A stretch of 64,000 nt of DNA from Bacillota bacterium. GTDB taxonomy: Bacteria; Bacillota_A; Clostridia; Lachnospirales; Lachnospiraceae. A program made the position numbers and the translations under genes. The stretch lies in the NCBI GenBank assembly GCA_023443625.1, contig JAEZTQ010000045.1, positions 1 through 64,000 of the forward strand, in the 5' to 3' direction. The notes below the pieces were generated by a model. It saw nothing but the letters and a program-made list of their open reading frames with translations, ran no database searches and was not told the DNA's origin. Positions 1,446 to 61,236 of this stretch are shown here, piece after piece; within the stretch, counting starts at the first letter, position 1, and each line of letters starts with the position of its first letter.

Positions 1446-3428
1446 ATGATACTTGCATGCAACAATATAAATAAAGCTTTTGGAACCACAGATATCCTTC
1501 GCTCAGTATCCTTTCATATTAACGATAAGGAAAAGGCTGCTATCGTAGGCATTAATGGAGCCGGCAAATCCACCCTACTTAAAATAATCATGAAGGAAAT
1601 AACTGCCGATGACGGCGATGTAATCTTAGCAAAGGGAAGTACCATAGGATATCTTGCTCAGCATCAAAATCTTTCTTCAGAAAGTACCATCCTTGATGAG
1701 ATGCTAACGGTAAAGCAGGATATCATTGATTTAAATTCTAATATTCGTAGTTTAGAACAGGAAATGAAGCATGTAGAAGGCGCAAAGCTAGACCAGATGT
1801 TAAGTACTTATACCCGTCTTATGCATGAATTTGAAAGTAAGAATGGCTATGCCTATCAAAGTGAGGTCACAGGTATCTTAAAGGGTCTTGGGTTTTTAGA
1901 GGAGGAGTTTGATAAGAAGGTAAACACTCTTTCTGGAGGACAAAAAACAAGAATTGCTTTAGGTAAACTACTCCTATCCAAACCGGATATCATTCTGCTA
2001 GATGAACCTACCAACCATTTGGACCTCATCTCCATTGCTTGGCTGGAGACCTTCCTGCTTAATTACAACGGAGCCGTTATTGTTGTTGCCCATGACCGCT
2101 ATTTCCTTGATAAGGTAGTATCAAAGGTAATAGAGATTGACCGTACCAAATGCCACACCTACGAAGGCAATTATACGACTTATATAGAGAAAAAAGCTAT
2201 GATTGAGAGTGCACAGCTAAAACACTATCTTAATCAGCAGCAGGAAATTAAACATCAGGAGGAGGTTATCGCTAAGCTTCGTTCCTTCAACCGTGAAAAA
2301 TCCATCAAACGTGCAGAGAGCCGTGAGAAGATGCTGGAGAAAATTGAGCGGGTGGATCGACCCTTAGAGCATACCCAGATGCATTTTCAGCTTGAGCCTC
2401 GGATTATGAGTGGTAACGATGTATTAACGGTGACAGGACTTTCTAAATCCTTTGGTAATCTAGAACTTTTCAATAATTTGAATTTTGAAGTAAAACGTGG
2501 GGAAAAGGTGGCCATTATCGGGAACAACGGTACTGGCAAGACCACTATATTAAAAATGATAAGTGGTATGACGGAGGCCGACGCTGGTGATATAAAGCTG
2601 GGCTCAAAGGTGCATGTGGGCTATTATGATCAGGAGCATCAAGTCCTTGACCCGGAGAAAACCTTGTTTGACGAATTACAAGATGCCTATCCATATCTGG
2701 ATAATACTGCTGTTCGCAATATCTTAGCTGCTTTCCTATTTACAGAGGATGATGTATTTAAGCGGATTAAGGATATCAGTGGTGGAGAAAGGGGTCGTGT
2801 GTCCCTGGCAAAGCTAATGCTGTCTGAGGCAAATCTTCTCATCCTAGATGAGCCTACCAACCATTTAGACATCACCTCCAAGGAAATCTTAGAGAATGCC
2901 ATAAATAATTACAGCGGAACTGTGTTATATGTGTCCCATGATCGTTATTTTATTAATAAGACAGCTACAAGAATCCTTGATTTAACAGAACAAAATCTTC
3001 TAAACTATATTGGTAACTACGATTACTATCTGGAGAAGAAGCCGGAGGTGGAAGCAGCTTATCTAGGTAAGACTGCTAGTGCTACGCCCCCATCCACTGG
3101 TGGCAAACCCGGTGCTTTTCCAGCAGCTGCCTTCCAAAATCCCTCTTCTATCCCTGCCCAGGAGAATGATAGCGAGAACAAACAGAGTTGGCAACAGCAA
3201 AAGGAAGAACAGGCACGTCAGCGAAAAAGAAAGAACGACCTTAAAAAGACGGAAGAAGAAATCTCTAAACTAGAAAGTCGTAATGAGGAAATCGATGGAC
3301 TTCTTACTCAGGAAGACATCTATACCAATGTATCAAAGCTTCTGGAATTAAATAATGAGAAAAAAGAAATTGAGACCCGCCTGGAGGAACTCTTAGAACA
3401 ATGGGAGCTCCTGGCAGCTGAGGAATAA
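1446..3428 (+). CDS. ABC-F family ATPase (ribosome-associated type)
   Basis: A soluble protein of 660 residues with two ABC ATPase domains and no membrane segments. The first Walker A is GINGAGKST (about residues 36-44) with LSGGQKTR and LLDEPTNHLD; the second is GNNGTGKTT (about 360) with ISGGERGR and LILDEPTNHLD. A charged linker lies between the domains, and a C-terminal coiled coil rich in Lys and Glu follows a Pro/Ala/Gly-rich hinge. This is the YdiF/Uup-like layout of ABC-F translation factors, which act at the ribosomal E site. Some members protect against antibiotics; nothing here shows resistance, so a housekeeping role is more likely. Confidence 0.9.
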   Translation: MILACNNINKAFGTTDILRSVSFHINDKEKAAIVGINGAGKSTLLKIIMKEITADDGDVILAKGSTIGYLAQHQNLSSESTILDEMLTVKQDIIDLNSNIRSLEQEMKHVEGAKLDQMLSTYTRLMHEFESKNGYAYQSEVTGILKGLGFLEEEFDKKVNTLSGGQKTRIALGKLLLSKPDIILLDEPTNHLDLISIAWLETFLLNYNGAVIVVAHDRYFLDKVVSKVIEIDRTKCHTYEGNYTTYIEKKAMIESAQLKHYLNQQQEIKHQEEVIAKLRSFNREKSIKRAESREKMLEKIERVDRPLEHTQMHFQLEPRIMSGNDVLTVTGLSKSFGNLELFNNLNFEVKRGEKVAIIGNNGTGKTTILKMISGMTEADAGDIKLGSKVHVGYYDQEHQVLDPEKTLFDELQDAYPYLDNTAVRNILAAFLFTEDDVFKRIKDISGGERGRVSLAKLMLSEANLLILDEPTNHLDITSKEILENAINNYSGTVLYVSHDRYFINKTATRILDLTEQNLLNYIGNYDYYLEKKPEVEAAYLGKTASATPPSTGGKPGAFPAAAFQNPSSIPAQENDSENKQSWQQQKEEQARQRKRKNDLKKTEEEISKLESRNEEIDGLLTQEDIYTNVSKLLELNNEKKEIETRLEELLEQWELLAAEE

Positions 3429-44104: not shown

Positions 44105-44425
44105 CATAAAAAACCCTATTGTTGGATTAGCAACAATAGGGGCATGATTTATTCTATATTTATTAAAAATGGGTACCGAAAGAAAACCTGCTGGTAGGCC
44201 TACAATAAATATAGCTTTTCCTGTCCTCACAGAATTGCTATCCATATCAAACTTAGGCAGGTATTCTGACTTATAGATCAACATACATTTTCGTCTTCCC
44301 AGATTACTCCAGTGACTGATTATTTAAAATCTAGAAAATGTACTCCTTACATACAGCAATGGGATTGTGCAGGATTCTCACCTGGCTTCCCTATTAATTC
44401 CACAACGTATACGCCTGGAAACCTA
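44105..44425 (-). ncRNA. Cobalamin riboswitch with terminator, upstream of the cob operon
   Basis: On the minus strand: a 5' stem start at about 44425, the core AGGGAAGCCAGGTGAGAATCC then TGCAC near 44390-44365, and the B12 box AAGTCAGAATACCTGCC (44271-44255). A terminator follows: CCCTATTGTTG pairs with CAACAATAGGG (44114-44141), then a T tract. This is a standard class-I cobalamin riboswitch acting by termination. Confidence 0.95.
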
Positions 44426-44436
44426 AATTCTTTCTC

Positions 44437-44465
44437 AGTATACTATGATAATTTCATACTGTCAA
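44437..44465 (-). promoter_or_regulatory. Promoter of the cobalamin operon
   Basis: On the minus strand TTGACA (44460-44465) and TATACT (44437-44442) are separated by 17 bases, and transcription would start about ten bases before the aptamer. Confidence 0.8.
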
Positions 44466-47732: not shown

Positions 47733-48413
47733 TTATGAAATTCTTCGATCTTCTACTATTTCTCCATCCTTTAGCCTAATAATATGATCAACAAAAAGAT
47801 CAATCTCAGAATCATTGGTAACCATAATCAAAGTCTTCTTATGATAATATACCATGTTGAGCAAGAAATCTAAAAGCTCCTTATTCATCTGGTAATCGTA
47901 ATTATCAGTAAAGTCATCCACTAATATTATATTCGGCTTATTGATCAGAGCTCTTGCATAAGTTACACAGGCTAGTTGATTTTTGGCTAATTGCTTAGGA
48001 TAATGATTTAATAATTCTCCTATGTTTAACCATTCAATAAGCTCCTGATAATAGGTTTTATCATACTTCTTGCGAGCTAATATAGAGGGAATAATTATAT
48101 TTTCATGAACTGTCAATTCTGGGATTAAGCTATCATTTTGAAATAAGTATCCAATTTCATTTCTTCTCATTTTGGCTAGTTGATCGTCAGTAAAATTTGT
48201 TATATTTTTATGATTAATATACACCTCTCCACTAGTAGGGCGTTCAAGTCCTCCTAGTATGCGCAGCAATGTGGTCTTACCTGATGCTTTTGATCCACTA
48301 ATTGCAACGCACTCCCCTTTTTTGATTTCAATATTACAATTAACAATGGCTCTGATTAAGTTATCATCCTTTTGAAAAGACTTATTCAAAGCTGTGATCT
48401 TACATATCGGCAT
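47733..48413 (-). CDS. ABC ATPase with degenerate catalytic motifs
   Basis: A 226-residue ATPase of the LolD/MacB type that pairs with FtsX-like permeases. Walker A is intact (GSKASGKT, residues 40-47), as is the Q-loop (LFQNDS, Q92). The signature LSGGQ is replaced by LAKNQ (142-146), the Walker B catalytic Glu by Asp (ILVDD, 167), and the H-loop His by Asn (VTND, 200). It should bind ATP but may hydrolyse it slowly or not at all. It closes the peptide/permease array. The start could instead be the ATG at 48425. Confidence 0.8.
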   Translation of the reverse strand: MPICKITALNKSFQKDDNLIRAIVNCNIEIKKGECVAISGSKASGKTTLLRILGGLERPTSGEVYINHKNITNFTDDQLAKMRRNEIGYLFQNDSLIPELTVHENIIIPSILARKKYDKTYYQELIEWLNIGELLNHYPKQLAKNQLACVTYARALINKPNIILVDDFTDNYDYQMNKELLDFLLNMVYYHKKTLIMVTNDSEIDLFVDHIIRLKDGEIVEDRRIS

Positions 48414-48490
48414 AAATCTTACCATCCTTACCAAGCTTATGACTGTTAGATAATATGTAGGCTACCTTTCTCTTGCTTCACTAGGCACAG

Positions 48491-48577
48491 AATGCTTGAA
48501 TTGATCTTCTCAATCCAAGCATTCTGTGTACTATCACTAATGAACTGGTAAAGTATTTATTCCCCAATAGATACTTT
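48491..48577 (-). other. Conserved hairpin pair A+B, unit 3
   Basis: Hairpin A (48550-48577) is AAAGTATTTATT/AATAGATACTTT with a CCCC loop on the plus strand. Hairpin B (48491-48523) is AATGCTTG.../...CCAAGCATT. Both recur in units 1 and 2. They follow the broken peptide gene and precede the ATPase gene. Confidence 0.75.
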
Positions 48578-48603
48578 CAACGCTAGAAATTATTTGCCAT
48601 ATA

Positions 48604-48642
48604 TTATCTGTCGGTATCAAGAAAATCCTGATATATTCTCAT
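48604..48642 (-). pseudogene. Broken third copy of the tiny peptide gene
   Basis: The frame reads M-R-I-Y-Q-D-F-L-D-T-D-R, twelve codons. Against unit 2, the D-F-L-D part aligns with D-L-L-E. A one-base loss near AGA then shifts the frame into an early TAA, although the nucleotides beyond still align (AATATATGGCAAATAA against AATATTTGGAAAATAA). The original start position reads ATA and an upstream ATG is used; the RBS is weakened to AAGGTAGT. A short functional peptide is possible but decay is likelier. Confidence 0.55.
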
Positions 48643-48718
48643 ACTACCTTAAGAAAGAACAACCTTGATTACAAGCTATTTATAGCATATCAACATAATT
48701 GCTTCAATAAGAGGGGAC

Positions 48719-48748
48719 ATGAACGTCGCATTTTGCTGTATGAACGTC
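48719..48748 (-). promoter_or_regulatory. Paired LytTR-type operator, unit 3
   Basis: ATGAACGTC at 48719-48727 and again at 48740-48748, with exactly 12 bases between. On the minus strand this is GACGTTCAT twice, close to the LytTR consensus (two 9-base direct repeats around a GTT core with a 12-13 base spacer). It sits ten bases after the permease 2 stop. The -10-like TATGCTATAAA follows downstream. Confidence 0.75.
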
Positions 48749-48757
48749 GACTGTCAA

Positions 48758-49378
48758 TTACCCTTCCTCATAAAACATAGGTTTCTCAGATAAAAAATGA
48801 GATATGGACATTCTACGAATTCCTATATCAAGATAAATACCAATGGATATAATAATACAGCAAGTAACTATAACTGCCATATAATATGTGGTAGATGAAG
48901 CAATCCATTCAATGGTGTGATTTACCAAATTGAAACTTCCTAGGTATTCAACAATAAAACATATCAGTAAATAACCTCCTAATAATCCTATGGATGTCGA
49001 AATGATTATCAAGAAAAATGCCTGAACTAATAATAAGGTTCTCATTGTACTCTTTGTTGCTCCTAATCCACTTAAAATATTAAAATCACCCACACTGGAT
49101 TTCATAATATTATAATACTGGCTAAGTAAATAAGTAATGCCTCCGATAAAAAAAACTGTTCGTAAGCTGAGAAATATATATCGCAAATTCGAATATATAT
49201 CATCCGTGACAAATACAAGTATATTATCCATATATATTATAGTGACTGCCATCAATATATAGGCCACAATATTGGATAGGGCTACAAAAATATAGTTCTT
49301 ATAGTTTCGCATAAATATAAGTTTAGAATAGGTAGGTATTAAAGACATAAGCTTCCTTTCTGCTAATTCCATAGGCAC
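48758..49378 (-). CDS. Minimal FtsX-type permease, copy 2
   Basis: A 206-residue membrane protein with four predicted segments (about 28-50, 68-90, 115-145, 165-187) and no large outer domain. The coupling stretch SGLGATKSTMRTLLLVQAFFL is the FtsX/MacB permease core. It is nearly identical to the 49651 copy; differences cluster in a few residues (for example SFNLVN for NYNMVN). It probably dimerises, with itself or with the paralogue, and pairs with the ATPase encoded at 47733-48413. RBS GGAAGC. Substrate unknown; the neighbouring tiny peptides are candidates. Confidence 0.8.
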   Translation of the reverse strand: MPMELAERKLMSLIPTYSKLIFMRNYKNYIFVALSNIVAYILMAVTIIYMDNILVFVTDDIYSNLRYIFLSLRTVFFIGGITYLLSQYYNIMKSSVGDFNILSGLGATKSTMRTLLLVQAFFLIIISTSIGLLGGYLLICFIVEYLGSFNLVNHTIEWIASSTTYYMAVIVTCCIIISIGIYLDIGIRRMSISHFLSEKPMFYEEG

Positions 49379-49380
49379 AA

Positions 49381-49466
49381 AATGCTTGGAATTGATGATC
49401 TCAATCCAAGCATTCTATGTATTATAACAAGAATTGGTAAAGTATTTATTCCCCAATAGATACTTT
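49381..49466 (-). other. Conserved hairpin pair A+B, unit 2
   Basis: Hairpin A at 49439-49466 and hairpin B at 49381-49414, between the tiny peptide gene and permease 2. On the minus strand B ends CCAAGCATTTTG, so it may be a leaky terminator that makes peptide transcripts more abundant than permease transcripts. Confidence 0.75.
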
Positions 49467-49478
49467 CATCGTGAGTAA

Positions 49479-49526
49479 TTATTTTCCAAATATTTTTCTA
49501 AAGATTTCAAGAAGATCTGGATACAT
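49479..49526 (-). CDS. Tiny peptide gene, unit 2 (15 codons)
   Basis: Encodes M-Y-P-D-L-L-E-I-F-R-K-I-F-G-K, then TAA. GGGAGG lies seven bases before the ATG. The peptide has no leader and would form an amphipathic helix with a basic end. It shares the pattern M-x-x-D-(L/F)-L-E-I-(F/L)-x-x-(I/L)-F-x-K with the unit 1 peptide. A LytTR operator lies about 85 bases upstream. It could be a signal, a bacteriocin-like or phenol-soluble-modulin-like peptide. Function is inferred from context only. Confidence 0.7.
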   Translation of the reverse strand: MYPDLLEIFRKIFGK

Positions 49527-49611
49527 TTTTTATCCTCCCTTATAAAAAGAACAACCTTGGTTACAAGCTGTTTATAGCATATAACCAAAGTTGCTTTCAA
49601 TAAGGTAGGAC

Positions 49612-49641
49612 ATGAACGTCGATTTTAAGTGCATGAACGTC
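49612..49641 (-). promoter_or_regulatory. Paired LytTR-type operator, unit 2
   Basis: ATGAACGTC at 49612-49620 and at 49633-49641, a 12-base spacer. It lies ten bases after the permease 1 stop and about 85 bases before the unit 2 peptide start; the intervening TATGCTATAAAC supplies a -10-like box. Confidence 0.78.
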
Positions 49642-49650
49642 GACTGTACT

Positions 49651-50271
49651 CTACCCTTCCTCATAAAACATAGGCTTCTCAGATAAAAAATGAGTTAAGG
49701 ACATTCTGCGAATTCCTATATCAAGATAGATACCAATGGATATTATAATACAGCAGGTAGCTATAGCTGCCATATAATATGTAGTAGAAGAAGCAATCCA
49801 TTCTATGGTATGATTTACCATATTATAGTTTCCAAGATATTCTACGATGAAACAAATCAGTAAATAGCCTCCTAATAATCCTATGGCTGTCGAAATGATT
49901 ATCAAGAAAAAAGCCTGAACTAATAATAAGGTTCTCATTGTACTCTTTGTTGCCCCTAATCCACTTAAAATACTAAAATCACCCACACTGGATTTCATAA
50001 TATTATAATACTGGCTAAGCAAATAAATAATGCCTCCGATAAATAACATAGTTCGTAAGCTGATAAATATATATCGCAAGTTCGAATATATATCATCAGT
50101 GACAAATACAAGTACATTATCCATATATACTGTGGTGACTGCCATCAATATATAGGCCACTATATTAGATAGTATTACAAAAATATAGTTCTTATAGTTT
50201 CTCATAAATATGATTTTAGAATAGGTACGTATTAAAGACATAAGCTTCCTTTCTGTTAATTCAATAGTCAC
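49651..50271 (-). CDS. Minimal FtsX-type permease, copy 1
   Basis: A 206-residue membrane protein, near-identical to the copy at 48758. Same four segments and FtsX core (SGLGATKSTMRTLLLVQA). The two begin alike (E-L/A...E-R-K-L-M-S-L-I) and both end F-Y-E-E-G. The high nucleotide match, extending into flanking non-coding DNA, indicates a recent tandem duplication of a unit of about 893 bp. A heterodimer of the two copies would make an ordinary two-permease ABC exporter. Confidence 0.8.
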   Translation of the reverse strand: MTIELTERKLMSLIRTYSKIIFMRNYKNYIFVILSNIVAYILMAVTTVYMDNVLVFVTDDIYSNLRYIFISLRTMLFIGGIIYLLSQYYNIMKSSVGDFSILSGLGATKSTMRTLLLVQAFFLIIISTAIGLLGGYLLICFIVEYLGNYNMVNHTIEWIASSTTYYMAAIATCCIIISIGIYLDIGIRRMSLTHFLSEKPMFYEEG

Positions 50272-50273
50272 AA

Positions 50274-50359
50274 AATGCTTGGAATTGATGTTCTCAATCC
50301 AAGCATTCTATGTATTATAATTAGAATTGGTAAAGTATTTATTCCCCAATAGATACTTT
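50274..50359 (-). other. Conserved hairpin pair A+B, unit 1
   Basis: Hairpin A at 50332-50359 and hairpin B at 50274-50307, between the unit 1 peptide gene and permease 1. Hairpin A is identical in sequence in all three units while the DNA just upstream of it has diverged, suggesting selection on the RNA or DNA structure. Confidence 0.75.
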
Positions 50360-50400
50360 CGTTGGAAGAATCTTAATCTTGTAAAGTAAAATTGTCCCAA

Positions 50401-50451
50401 TTATTTTTTACGAAATAAACTCATTAAAATTTCCAAAAAATCTCCAGCCAT
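50401..50451 (-). CDS. Tiny peptide gene, unit 1 (16 codons)
   Basis: Encodes M-A-G-D-F-L-E-I-L-M-S-L-F-R-K-K, then TAA. GGGAGG is nine bases before the ATG. It is amphipathic with a basic C-terminus, and homologous in position and pattern to the unit 2 peptide although most residues differ. It is the first gene after the sensor kinase and is preceded by a LytTR operator. Too short for normal gene finders; support comes from the RBS, the recurrence in each unit and the conserved D..LE-I..F..K pattern. Confidence 0.7.
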   Translation of the reverse strand: MAGDFLEILMSLFRKK

Positions 50452-50497
50452 ATTAATTAACCTCCCTATGTAAAAACCTTGGTTACAAGCTGTTTAT

Positions 50498-50562
50498 AGC
50501 ATATAACCAAGGCTTCATCAATAAGGTCAAACATGAACGTCGATTTTTCCTGCATGAACGTC
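50498..50562 (-). promoter_or_regulatory. Paired LytTR-type operator and promoter, unit 1
   Basis: ATGAACGTC at 50533-50541 and 50554-50562 (12-base spacer), directly after the sensor kinase stop. Downstream on the minus strand follow TTGACC (50525-50530) and TATATGCTATAAA. A palindrome CCTTGGTTA.../...TAACCAAGG overlaps the -10 region in units 1 and 2. Spacing fits activation by a LytTR regulator such as the one encoded just upstream. Confidence 0.78.
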
Positions 50563-50567
50563 TATAT

Positions 50568-51881
50568 TTAATTTAATCCTCTGTTTTTCATATGTATATC
50601 CACTATGAACTCATTATTCTCTATTATGAAATTATAGGATCCCATATAATTTTTCACCCTGTTAATTACATTCTTAACACCGAATCCATGCAGGCTTTTA
50701 TCCTTCTTTGAGGTAATAAGAACGCCATTTATAACATTTACATCACTCATAATAGGATTTTTTACATTTATAAATAAATCATCTTTATAGCTTGTAATTT
50801 TTACATCAATATAGTGTTGCTTATCATCTTTTGACTCTATTCGCTGTATAGCTTCCACTGCATTATTTATAATATTGGCAAATATAACACATAAGTCCAT
50901 AGGAGCCACATAAAGTTTCTCAGGAAAACCACCTATCAATCTGATAATAATATTTTCATTCTTATATCTACTTTGTATATCATTAAGTATTGCATTTACA
51001 ATATCATTACCACAATCAAATAAATCCTCTTGATTATTTGAAGATTCAATTAATTCATGTATATATTGCTGCAATTCCCATTGCTTACCTGATTGATATA
51101 AACTATATATACATGTTAAATGGTTCTTCATCTCATGTCTGATACTATGGATTTCCTTTTGTTTTTCATTAACCAATGTATAATACTTCTGTTGTGACTC
51201 AATTACGTTTTGGCTGATTAATGAAAGGGCTTTGTAATTATCTCTAGATTCTATAATGATAATCATCATAAAGCAAACCAAACAATAGGTGACTACAATA
51301 ATAATAGTTATTACAATCAAAGCTCGCCTTCCAGCATCCGATATATTACTATTTAAACTTACTAATAGTGCTGATATAAAAAGCATTCCTGTTCCTATCC
51401 CTAGAAAAAGCAATGCATAAATACTTTTTGATATTTTAATCTGTATATTATTCTTTCTTCTCTTTTTAATAAATACTAAAATTATTAAAGGTATATTAAT
51501 AAACATCATATAGAAATAACGAGAAATCCCCTCATTTCCCGGGTACATATTTAACGTTGTTCCAATTCCTATAATGCAAGTATCTATGAATAAAATAAGA
51601 GCATATGCCAGTAAAGCATTAGTTAATTTTTTTATGTATCTACCTTCAAACCAAAAGCATATAGCCATAAATAACATGCACATCGTAACCAAAGTAACAG
51701 TCTCCGTACTGTATTTACGAAACAACCCCGCCAAAATCAATAAAAAAATTTGAAAAAAACCTGTTATGAGGTAAATACTTTTTCTTTTATTTGGCTTGAA
51801 GTTAAAAAACCCCCATAATATTAACCATATTTTTATTAAATCTGTCAAATAGCTATAAAAAATATGTATTATATCACTCAT
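50568..51881 (-). CDS. AgrC-like sensor histidine kinase (GHKL)
   Basis: A 437-residue kinase with about six N-terminal membrane segments (1-215), a dimer/His region S-I-R-H-E-M-K-N-H-L near 250, and a GHKL ATPase domain with N-I-I-N-N-A-V-E-A-I and GFGVKNV. This is the peptide-sensing AgrC/ComD layout. It follows the response regulator by 15 bases with RBS AAGGAG. AgrB and AgrD genes are absent; the tiny downstream peptides are the obvious candidate ligands (inference). Confidence 0.88.
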   Translation of the reverse strand: MSDIIHIFYSYLTDLIKIWLILWGFFNFKPNKRKSIYLITGFFQIFLLILAGLFRKYSTETVTLVTMCMLFMAICFWFEGRYIKKLTNALLAYALILFIDTCIIGIGTTLNMYPGNEGISRYFYMMFINIPLIILVFIKKRRKNNIQIKISKSIYALLFLGIGTGMLFISALLVSLNSNISDAGRRALIVITIIIVVTYCLVCFMMIIIIESRDNYKALSLISQNVIESQQKYYTLVNEKQKEIHSIRHEMKNHLTCIYSLYQSGKQWELQQYIHELIESSNNQEDLFDCGNDIVNAILNDIQSRYKNENIIIRLIGGFPEKLYVAPMDLCVIFANIINNAVEAIQRIESKDDKQHYIDVKITSYKDDLFINVKNPIMSDVNVINGVLITSKKDKSLHGFGVKNVINRVKNYMGSYNFIIENNEFIVDIHMKNRGLN

Positions 51882-51896
51882 AAAAACATATTCTCC

Positions 51897-52595
51897 TTAT
51901 CTCGCATTCCTTCTACGGTACTCTTTACAGGCTTTTTTTAACTTACCAATCTGGCGAATTGACACCTCTACCTTTTCTCCATTATCAAGGAGTACTTCCT
52001 TGTTAATCTCATCAATAAAAGCCAAATTTACAATATAAGCTTTATGAACACGAAAGAAATCTCCTATATTTAATATCTCTTCCCACTCATTCATGGTTGT
52101 AGTGCTTTCAAATGTTCCCCTTTGCGTTCTAATAAGGGTATATCGATTAACATATTCAATATATATAATATCCATCAATTTGATGAAAAGAATCTCTCCA
52201 TCCTTGCTCACAATGGTTTTACAGTTTTTGGTTAAATCTCCTACAGCTTCTGTTAAAGCTCTTATGCATTCCATTTCATTTACAGGCTTTAACAGATAAC
52301 GAAAAGCCCTCACCCTATAGCCTGCCTGTATAAACCCCTTATAGCCCGTAAGAAATATGATAATCATACTTTCATCAAATTCACGAATCTTCTCTGCTGT
52401 CCTTAAACCATTTAATCCCTTCATCTGAATGTCTAAAAACAGTATATCAATTGGTCTTTGGCATGAAATTAGCTCTTCCCCAGAGGCAAAAGTAATTATC
52501 TCTATTTGTGATAAATTTGATATCTTAAATTTATTACATATTCGAAGGATTTCATCTCGAATAATTTCTTCATCATCACATATTCCAATTAGCAC
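51897..52595 (-). CDS. LytTR response regulator
   Basis: A 232-residue AgrA/LytR-type regulator: receiver domain with D-D-E-E near the start and phosphoacceptor Asp in IDILFLDIQMKGLNG, then a LytTR DNA-binding domain (about 135-232) with FFRVHKAYIVNLAFI. GTG 52595 is chosen because GAGAGG lies seven bases upstream; TTG 52613 is an alternative. The three paired repeats downstream of the kinase match the site type this domain binds. Confidence 0.9.
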   Translation of the reverse strand: MLIGICDDEEIIRDEILRICNKFKISNLSQIEIITFASGEELISCQRPIDILFLDIQMKGLNGLRTAEKIREFDESMIIIFLTGYKGFIQAGYRVRAFRYLLKPVNEMECIRALTEAVGDLTKNCKTIVSKDGEILFIKLMDIIYIEYVNRYTLIRTQRGTFESTTTMNEWEEILNIGDFFRVHKAYIVNLAFIDEINKEVLLDNGEKVEVSIRQIGKLKKACKEYRRRNAR

Positions 52596-52888
52596 AAAAT
52601 TACCTCTCTTCAAATAATTACCAAGTTCTATTATATTTTAACAATCGTATTTTGTTTCGTCAAGATATTACACTAAAACACAGTAATTTTATATAATATT
52701 TTTTAAATAAATTAAATTTAACAATATAAGCAATCATTCTATGGCAGTATTGGCCATATTCATCTTATTGTCTGGAATTATGTTTTAACTCCTCCTGTCT
52801 ACTTATATGATATGGACCCTTGCGTTCACAGTAGTTTTATATTACAATATTTCAAATAAAACTCTTTGACTATGAAAGGAAGGTATAT
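52596..52888. other. Divergent spacer between the response regulator and luxS
   Basis: About 290 AT-rich bases. No copy of the ATGAACGTC operator is present, so the regulator/kinase pair and luxS probably have separate control. No gene or hairpin was recognised. Confidence 0.45.
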
Positions 52889-53368
52889 ATGAAGCAAATT
52901 GCAAGCTTTACTATTGATCATATGAAATTGCTCCCAGGTGTATATGTGTCCCGAAAGGACAAAATTGGCAGTGAGACAATAACAACTTTTGATATAAGAA
53001 TGACTCGTCCTAATTTTGATTCCCCCATGCTTACCGGTGAAATTCATACCATTGAACATCTGGGAGCAACCTACTTACGAAATCATAAGGACTTCGCAGA
53101 TAAAACTGTTTATTTTGGACCTATGGGCTGCAGAACAGGCTTTTATCTATTACTAGGCGGTGATTACGAATCAAAAGATATCCTCCCCCTGATAACAGAA
53201 ATGTTTGAATTCACCCGAGACTTTGAAGGGGAAATTCCCGGAGCATCAGCCGTCAACTGTGGAAATTATTCGGATATGAACTTAAGTTTAGCAAAATACT
53301 ATGCTAAGAAATTTCTTGACGAGATTCTCTACAAAATAGATGAAGATCACCTAATCTATCCAGAATAA
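52889..53368 (+). CDS. luxS: S-ribosylhomocysteine lyase (autoinducer-2 synthase)
   Basis: Cleaves S-ribosylhomocysteine to homocysteine and DPD, the AI-2 precursor. The 159 residues carry the Zn-binding HTIEH (His near 54 and 58), the catalytic Cys in GPMGCRTGFYLLL, and a later Cys ligand in SAVNCGNYSDMNL. RBS GAAAGGAAGG. It diverges from the response regulator. No pfs/mtn nucleosidase gene is adjacent. Confidence 0.97.
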   Translation: MKQIASFTIDHMKLLPGVYVSRKDKIGSETITTFDIRMTRPNFDSPMLTGEIHTIEHLGATYLRNHKDFADKTVYFGPMGCRTGFYLLLGGDYESKDILPLITEMFEFTRDFEGEIPGASAVNCGNYSDMNLSLAKYYAKKFLDEILYKIDEDHLIYPE

Positions 53369-60937: not shown

Positions 60938-61200
60938 ACCTCCCGTCTCACATAAAGAGACGAAAGGTTAGCTTCCGTGGTACCACTCTGTTTCGTATAC
61001 AAATCAATATAACTATAAATTCTCTAATATGAAAATAAACAGTCTATAATTTGCTGCGCACTTTATTTCGATAACGGGAATCCCGCTCTGACCTACTTAA
61101 CTTCAATCAGAGAGCTCAAAGGCGAGTTGGGAGTCTGTTGCTACTGCCTTCCACCACCCGGCAGCTCTCTGTAAGCCCATTGTCTCTTATTACTCCTTGT
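60938..61200 (-). ncRNA. T-box leader of leuS
   Basis: On the minus strand a stem I region begins CAGAGAGCTGCCGGG and closes GAGCTCTCTG. The T-box itself is AGAGTGGTACCACGGAAGC (near 60971-60989). The terminator AACCTTTCGTCTC/GAGACGGGAGGTT follows with a T run (60938-60969). Candidate specifier codon: CUC (Leu) at 61124-61126, uncertain. Uncharged tRNA(Leu) should favour the antiterminator. Confidence 0.92.
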
Positions 61201-61236
61201 CAATGCTTCTTTATTATTTAATTCATAATACTATTT

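Follow-up and report, generated by a model that had tools for sequence, protein, structure and literature searches.

The 64-kb window analysed here (positions 1 to 64,000 of contig JAEZTQ010000045.1, assembly GCA_023443625.1), from a bacterium of the Lachnospiraceae related to Herbinix, carries on its minus strand, between 47733 and 52613, the genes for a LytTR response regulator and a GHKL histidine kinase, followed by three tandem units numbered 3, 2 and 1 and by an ABC ATPase gene. We give about an even chance to the reading that this locus encodes an autoinduction circuit of the LytTR/AgrC type that is independent of AgrB and uses leaderless peptides. Units 3 and 2 each consist of an operator, a promoter, a tiny open reading frame (ORF; 16 and 15 amino acids [aa], respectively), two hairpins and a permease gene (permeases 2 and 1), and unit 1 consists of an operator, a promoter, a 12-aa ORF and two hairpins and leads to the ATPase with no permease. 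A Pfam/NCBIfam scan recognized five genes (the LytTR regulator, the GHKL kinase, two FtsX permeases and one ABC ATPase), and the tandem repeats are spaced by 889 to 893 bp, with one segment of 922 bp. Hence, the regulator, the AgrC-like kinase and the three tandem operator-peptide units of about 893 bp that an earlier annotation had described from the sequence alone (the original prediction) are all present.

Operators, tiny peptides and the kinase sensor

The predicted LytTR operator, CGACGTTCAT-N11-CGACGTTCAT, repeats with a period of 21 bp, which leaves 12 bp between its two 9-mers. It was matched three times in the 64 kb (with 0, 0 and 1 mismatch) and never in 100 shuffles of the window, in agreement with the earlier claim of one paired operator per unit. 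At up to one mismatch, a scan of 34 genomes of the genus-level group gave 16 sites, 7 of them exact, and the reversed control gave 12. The exact sites stand out by our own estimate, the control being given as a total that is not split by mismatch; one-mismatch sites were dropped as regulon members in bulk because of this control, and the sites used here are the exact ones and those beside the RNA element described below or a syntenic locus. Four exact operators lie at home loci and three are unlinked. The unlinked one in genome G006 (L052:3026-4060) precedes a 344-aa protein with a signal-peptide-like start, the one in G033 (L053:1884-4039) precedes a 163-aa signal-peptide-like protein, behind which come an ABC ATPase and a 311-aa membrane protein, and the one in G001 precedes sequence that is given as N. 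We assigned signal peptides by eye, and neither the 344-aa nor the 163-aa protein matched a Pfam or NCBIfam family above the cut-off. A protein with a membrane-anchor-like start comes after the 344-aa protein in G006, and the G033 locus resembles a secreted effector with its self-protection. The one-mismatch operator G033:C21 precedes membrane proteins and was kept merely as a possible target. The repeats of G005 and G032 have drifted and were missed by the pattern, which suggests that the specificity of the regulator shifts by lineage. The operators concerned (L024 and L027) have CGTTTAT and CCGTTC forms.

Peptide genes were sought as ORFs of 11 to 30 codons with a strong Shine-Dalgarno (SD) sequence and an ATG start, and chance was gauged with matched dinucleotide shuffles of the same slots. 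Such an ORF, of 15 to 20 codons, is present in 11 of 14 slots; matched shuffles of those 11 contain one in 0.2 to 1.6% of cases, or in 0.05 to 1.05% when shorter slots are taken. A tiny gene of the kind that the original prediction described is thus beyond chance by shuffles, and the slots that fail the rule are those of unit 1 and of genomes G034 and G029. Unit 1 is probably a decayed unit, because it has no strong-SD ORF, a weakened promoter hairpin and no permease behind it. We also considered its ORF as a third working peptide, which the slot test makes unlikely.

The 11 intact peptides have net charges of -2 to +1 and neither a double-glycine leader nor a C-terminal extension, and by eye they contain a single Cys among them. 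Their helical moment exceeds that of shuffles (mean z 1.20 at 100 degrees, Fisher p 8e-4; 1.34 at 90 degrees, -0.10 at 120 degrees and lower beyond). The peptide ORF is also the least conserved part of the array: units 3 and 2 are 64.7% identical there (68.8% without gap columns; 49.5% over the whole peptide slot counted with gaps), compared with 81.1% from operator to terminator (87.8% without gap columns), 93.8% in the hairpins and 91.2% in the permease. Among 11 kinases, the sensor half has a mean identity of 29%, versus 53% elsewhere.

A putative promoter inside a hairpin and two RNA hairpins downstream

The original prediction listed two conserved hairpins per unit. Both are real and both covary, and a third one, around the promoter, had been overlooked. 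In 13 operator units, the segment from the -35-like TTG through a U-rich stretch folds as a terminator-like hairpin with the -10-like box in its loop; the fold is clear in 12 of them and weak in the window's unit 1. The folding energies range from -18.7 to -31.8 kcal/mol, with -13.1 kcal/mol in unit 1, and z values against shuffles are -3.9 to -9.8 in 12 of the 13 units and -2.0 in unit 1; the promoters at four of four unlinked operators have no such hairpin (z -0.8 to +1.1). In alignment A4 (12 distinct rows of the 13, of which row L027 seems misaligned by one), 88.1% of the cells pair and 22 double-sided changes occur, against at most 48.2% and 9 in slid versions. A transcript from the assumed start would lose the stem, with 0 to -5.2 kcal/mol left. 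We infer both the start sites and the termination at the promoter hairpin. A search of the open literature found no published promoter inside a terminator.

The first downstream hairpin (HP1) carries UUGGGGAAU identically in 14 of 14 sequences and UAUUGGGGAAU in 13, and its stem covaries; the core reads TATTGGGGAAT in 13 of the 14 and TGTTGGGGAAT in G005. Only the G029 sequence came from searching for the motif itself. In alignment A1 (12 rows), 86.8% of the cells pair and 9 double-sided changes occur (slid versions, no more than 59.7% and 3); 15 of 500 shuffles reach the observed count of pairs changed on both sides, and 80 of 500 that of pair types. Read as a simple stem capped by the GGGG loop, HP1 is paired in 145 of 168 cells. 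Two other readings of HP1 were dropped by eye: a pseudoknot with crossing AAAGTAT and ATTGG arms, the second of which is lost in the more distant rows, and a coding stretch, for which there is no common reading frame while the stem covaries. The second hairpin (HP2) covaries as well, and its G034 version is, by eye, GC-rich with both arms changed. CsrA is encoded in 29 of the 34 genomes, the carriers G008 and G034 not among them, and a role of CsrA at HP1 is neither supported nor excluded.

A covariance model built from the two hairpins matched 10 of the 34 genomes, 9 of which are its training set, so that G034 alone is independent. Under strict filters it matched 1 of 397 genomes sampled from the family, G001 itself, and we therefore claim no family-wide spread.

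The hairpins can outlive the genes around them. HP1 and HP2 have outlasted the decayed peptide in unit 1 of the window, and HP1 is kept in G029, which lacks the peptide, and in G034, which has no good ORF, in both cases with no permease behind. In G029 (L096, about 1936-2036, minus strand), HP1 is followed by the inverted repeats GTGAGAC/GTCTCAC and CTGGATTTG/CAAATCCAG. This persistence, and the constancy of UUGGGGAAU while the stem covaries, would fit a LytTR-driven regulatory RNA that carries a small peptide gene and has the GGGG-loop hairpin as its working part. RNAIII, which encodes delta-haemolysin and is AgrA controlled according to an excerpt of PMC10482373, would be the model. However, no U-run was seen behind HP2, and the hairpins could be ordinary mRNA elements, since the permease directly follows in eight of nine intact relatives. 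We regard an RNA-first function as quite unlikely.

Relatives, remnants and the transporter genes

Nine of the 34 genomes contain the regulator, the kinase, operator-like repeats, a peptide ORF and the GGGG hairpin; the locus in a Herbinix sp. metagenome-assembled genome (L001) has a permease 57% identical to that of the window. Relatives with tiny genes and operators, which the original prediction had proposed to look for, thus exist, and the recurrence that it envisaged across several genera was found within one genus-level group and not in several distant genera. The tandem array, too, is a property of the window, the relatives having one unit per locus read. No matching published system was found in a search limited to the open literature.

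A permease search matched nine of the 34 genomes, with a stand-alone permease at the locus in eight (G001, G004, G005, G006, G008, G026, G032 and G033); in G011 the matches are weak, partial and set in longer frames, and we do not count it as a carrier. Across 295 relatives, the permease profile again matched nine, namely the eight known carriers and a weak partial match in G089 (a 1076-aa frame). G023 keeps the regulator, kinase, operator, peptide ORF and hairpins, and a 139-aa membrane protein without an FtsX match takes the place of the permease. The ATPase is present in six of nine carriers and missing in G026 and G023, and the G008 contig ends inside the permease. Two further loci are remnants: G029 has the regulator, kinase and HP1 and neither peptide nor transporter, and G034 has an operator and hairpins elsewhere, where no good ORF is present and the surrounding 8 kb that were read encode none of the six locus proteins.

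The G023 locus bears on the idea of attenuation, in which translation of the tiny ORF as a leader peptide would control the permease gene downstream. The order of the parts, with the ORF upstream of the permease and hairpins between, would suit such a device; however, G023 retains the ORF and HP1 beside a membrane protein that has no FtsX match, with no ATPase found, and by eye no run of a single codon recurs in the peptides. Attenuation is highly improbable in our view.

A haloacid dehalogenase (HAD) phosphatase gene follows the locus in eight of nine carriers, and luxS flanks the other side in six of nine; luxS lies beside the regulator in G004, G005, G006, G023, G029, G032 and G033, is not in the stretch read for G026 and G008, and the G001 contig ends. 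Among 30 HAD phosphatase loci (1.5 kb read), 9 adjoin the cassette or a remnant, 8 are empty sites that have luxS where the cassette would be and nothing between, and 13 adjoin other genes. Probably, the whole cassette was acquired or lost in one piece.

The permease does have the FtsX domain that had been assigned to it, but its predicted length of 206 residues is probably too long. A start at an internal ATG is likelier, because an SD sequence is found there and the resulting 196 aa is the length of the closest database relatives. Run against 5.8 billion proteins, the permease profile matched 14 protein clusters at E <= 0.001. For a structure model from 9 sequences (predicted local distance difference test score, 70.7), no fold reached E <= 0.001; the lowest value was E 0.03, and FtsX, LolCDE, HrtB and BceB are among the top weak matches.

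The ATPase is encoded separately, as a protein of 226 aa with no peptidase domain, and its profile matches MJ0796, PsdA, BceA, MacB and LolD. Relatives at E <= 1e-40 comprise 39 proteins, 35 at 50 to 100% identity and 4 at 37 to 38%. Throughout the clade of 35 clusters, Gly is absent from signature position 4 (0/35) and occurs once at position 3, and His is absent from the H-loop position (0/35), one member having a His one place on. All 34 members with a letter at that position have the Walker A Lys, 34 of 35 have the Walker B Asp, and 28 of 35 have the Glu that comes next. The four outsiders have LSGGQ and His. The degeneracy first noticed in the window is therefore clade-wide.

An exporter was also part of the original prediction, and this part was not supported as it stood. 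The adjacency of the genes and the weak FtsX-type fold match would suit an ordinary, self-contained exporter that pumps the peptide out, and an excerpt of PMC10482373 reports that PmtCD and AbcA can export phenol-soluble modulins (PSMs) in staphylococci. However, the signature Gly and the H-loop His are lost throughout the clade, though Walker A and B are kept, and G026 and G023 keep the peptide with no ATPase at the locus. For these reasons a normal export pump is doubtful, unless the permease pairs with another ATPase elsewhere, and we leave only a very small chance to the self-contained exporter.

An unlikely reading to which we still give some weight is that the peptide is an effector only, a membrane peptide akin to PSMs or leaderless bacteriocins, with a different cue for the kinase and with an ABC module that shields the producing cell in the manner of BceAB-type modules. 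The peptides are short, leaderless, weakly amphipathic and diverging, PsdA and BceA are among the best solved relatives of the ATPase profile, other operator-linked genes resemble secreted effectors, and AgrA motifs are reported at PSM genes in the excerpt of PMC10482373. The charge of the peptides, however, is below the +3 to +4 of leaderless-bacteriocin rows in part of a table in PMC6131525, the permease, at 196 aa versus 635 to 645, has no extracellular domain as large as that of BceB, and immunity conferred by an ABC protein without LSGGQ and the H-loop His is hard to picture.

Table 1. Features of the locus and its luxS flank, in window coordinates
Feature	Position	Strand	Basis
LytTR response regulator, AgrA-like architecture	51897..52613	-	Pfam Response_reg + LytTR
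GHKL histidine kinase, 7 hydrophobic segments, H-box IRHEMKNH	50568..51881	-	Pfam HATPase_c_5; H-box, hydropathy
Unit 3 paired LytTR operator (predicted)	50533..50563	-	Pattern match, 1 mismatch
Unit 3 promoter hairpin, -10-like TATAAA in loop of terminator-like stem, U-run after	50474..50514	-	-25.0 kcal/mol, z -6.2
Unit 3 tiny peptide MAGDFLEILMSLFRKK	50401..50451	-	Strong-SD ORF rule
Unit 3 HP1, GGGG tetraloop	50332..50359	-	Conserved fold, covariation
Unit 3 HP2	50269..50312	-	Conserved fold, covariation
Permease 2, FtsX domain, 196 aa from internal ATG	49651..50241	-	Domain scan
Unit 2 paired LytTR operator (predicted)	49612..49642	-	Exact pattern match
Unit 2 promoter hairpin	49552..49593	-	-27.8 kcal/mol, z -7.5
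Unit 2 tiny peptide MYPDLLEIFRKIFGK	49479..49526	-	Strong-SD ORF rule
Unit 2 HP1	49439..49466	-	
Unit 2 HP2	49376..49419	-	
Permease 1, FtsX domain, 196 aa from internal ATG	48758..49348	-	Domain scan
Unit 1 paired LytTR operator (predicted)	48719..48749	-	Exact pattern match
Unit 1 promoter hairpin, weakened	48661..48702	-	-13.1 kcal/mol, z -2.0
Unit 1 ORF MRIYQDFLDTDR, probably decayed	48604..48642	-	No strong-SD ORF in slot test
Unit 1 HP1, intact	48550..48577	-	
Unit 1 HP2, intact, stem altered yet still paired	48486..48528	-	
ABC ATPase without LSGGQ and H-loop His	47733..48413	-	Domain scan, motif reading
luxS, flanks locus	52889..53368	+	Pfam LuxS

Elsewhere in the window, 60953-61212 is a T-box leader and 44239-44441 a cobalamin riboswitch; both are ordinary.

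Proposed circuit and comparison with known systems

For the AgrB-independent autoinduction circuit, we infer the following course of events. The kinase would sense the leaderless peptide of 15 to 20 residues, or the effect of the peptide on the membrane, and phosphorylate the LytTR regulator, which would bind the paired 9-mers immediately before a TTG-N17-TATAAA-like promoter and raise expression of the peptide, of the small ABC module and of unlinked genes for secreted proteins. Polymerase arriving from the kinase gene or from a preceding unit would stop at the promoter hairpin, and a transcript begun at the promoter would be without the 5' arm and hence escape termination; an occupied operator would thus be required for peptide production. 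The two downstream RNA hairpins probably separate or stabilize the peptide message. The permease and ATPase may be a non-pumping partner that tunes the sensor or protects the cell itself, which is likelier than a conventional exporter because the catalytic ABC motifs are lost and the module is sometimes missing. In the window, an ancestral unit would have been triplicated, two units retaining divergent intact peptides and the third losing peptide and permease; the weak terminator of unit 1 may allow transcription from unit 2 to reach the ATPase gene.

Several observations weigh against this circuit. AgrB is present in 13 of the 34 genomes and in 6 of 11 carriers, the remnants G029 and G034 included, and in G026 it adjoins the locus, so that an autoinducing peptide (AIP) could be the ligand there. 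The AgrB gene of G026 and an AgrD-like 46-aa ORF (L025:8371-9829) lie about 1.2 kb upstream of the regulator, and a membrane protein of 96 to 112 aa that recurs in G008 is located between this pair and the regulator. The remnants in G029 and G034 mean that peptide and sensor are not strictly coupled, and a diverging sensor domain is usual in kinases even without peptide ligands. Amphipathicity is weak in single peptides (3 of 11 fall below p 0.05, and that of L027 is negative), and the set includes non-independent kin, namely the G008/G026 pair and the two window peptides. The total of operator sites at up to one mismatch hardly exceeds that of the reversed control. Not every measure of covariation is raised in the promoter hairpin: 5 pairs show a double-sided change, a number reached by 150 of 500 shuffles and raised to 7 by a slide of +1, pair types are not raised (494 of 500 shuffles reach the count), and the U-run behind it varies, being short in L001 and L024.

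On the other side, the original prediction that AgrB is absent was upheld for the window by a tblastn search with eight AgrB queries (E up to 0.01), seven of which found the G026 gene as a control. AgrB was likewise not found in 5 of the 11 carriers (G005, G006, G008, G023 and G032), whose assemblies may be incomplete. The five-gene Pfam/NCBIfam scan found no peptidase-ABC; no search was aimed at LanM, radical-SAM or double-glycine genes.

Peptide quorum sensing of the AgrC type is generally tied to a processing or export machine, either AgrB or a peptidase ABC. A recurring circuit of kinase, regulator and 15-to-20-residue ORF would show a simpler signaling route and would help gene finders to see peptides missed by annotation. 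If the proposed mechanism is true, a promoter in a terminator loop lets only regulator-started transcripts survive, a compact insulation device that would explain how autoinduced copies can stand in tandem without cross-reading. The ATPase clade without signature and H-loop, with Walker A and B kept, would offer a natural test of an ABC complex without normal hydrolysis. Tentatively, and with more doubt than for the circuit as such, we raise the possibility of a distinct architecture, in which unprocessed micro-peptides would be both autoinducer and product of an AgrC/LytTR switch, a promoter would sit in a terminator loop, the peptide mRNA would serve at the same time as a structured RNA with a GGGG-loop hairpin, and a catalytically silent ABC module would act as receptor or gate and not as a pump.

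The closest known system is staphylococcal agr, which shares the multi-pass GHKL kinase and LytTR regulator, an operator-driven transcript with a small peptide gene (P2/P3, RNAIII and delta-haemolysin) and, in the excerpt of PMC10482373 on AgrA at P2, paired 9-mers with a 12-bp gap, the operators here being predicted. In contrast to agr, the window has no AgrB, the peptides have neither the Cys/Ser core nor the charged tail of AgrD, the promoter lies inside a terminator-like hairpin, an FtsX/ATPase module is present and the unit is triplicated. Blp/ComD-type systems also combine a LytTR regulator with a kinase; for GSP-BlpHR of S. gallolyticus, an excerpt of PMC8545106 describes a 30-bp operator upstream of bacteriocin genes and at further sites. 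Unlike in the Blp/Com systems, the peptides here have no double-glycine leader and the ATPase has no peptidase domain.

PSMs, like the peptides described here, are short and leaderless, and leaderless bacteriocins are cationic, antimicrobial and of about 30 residues or more. The present peptides differ from both in having 15 to 20 aa, in being near-neutral and in being encoded beside their own kinase and regulator. Leaderless bacteriocins likewise are short peptides without a leader according to the excerpt of PMC6131525, whose table rows include some of 30 to 31 aa. BceAB/PsdAB, MacB, LolCDE, HrtBA and FtsEX, finally, are sequence relatives of the ATPase and weak fold matches of the permease; compared with BceAB-type modules, the permease here has 196 aa and no large extracellular domain, and the ATPase has neither LSGGQ nor the H-loop His.

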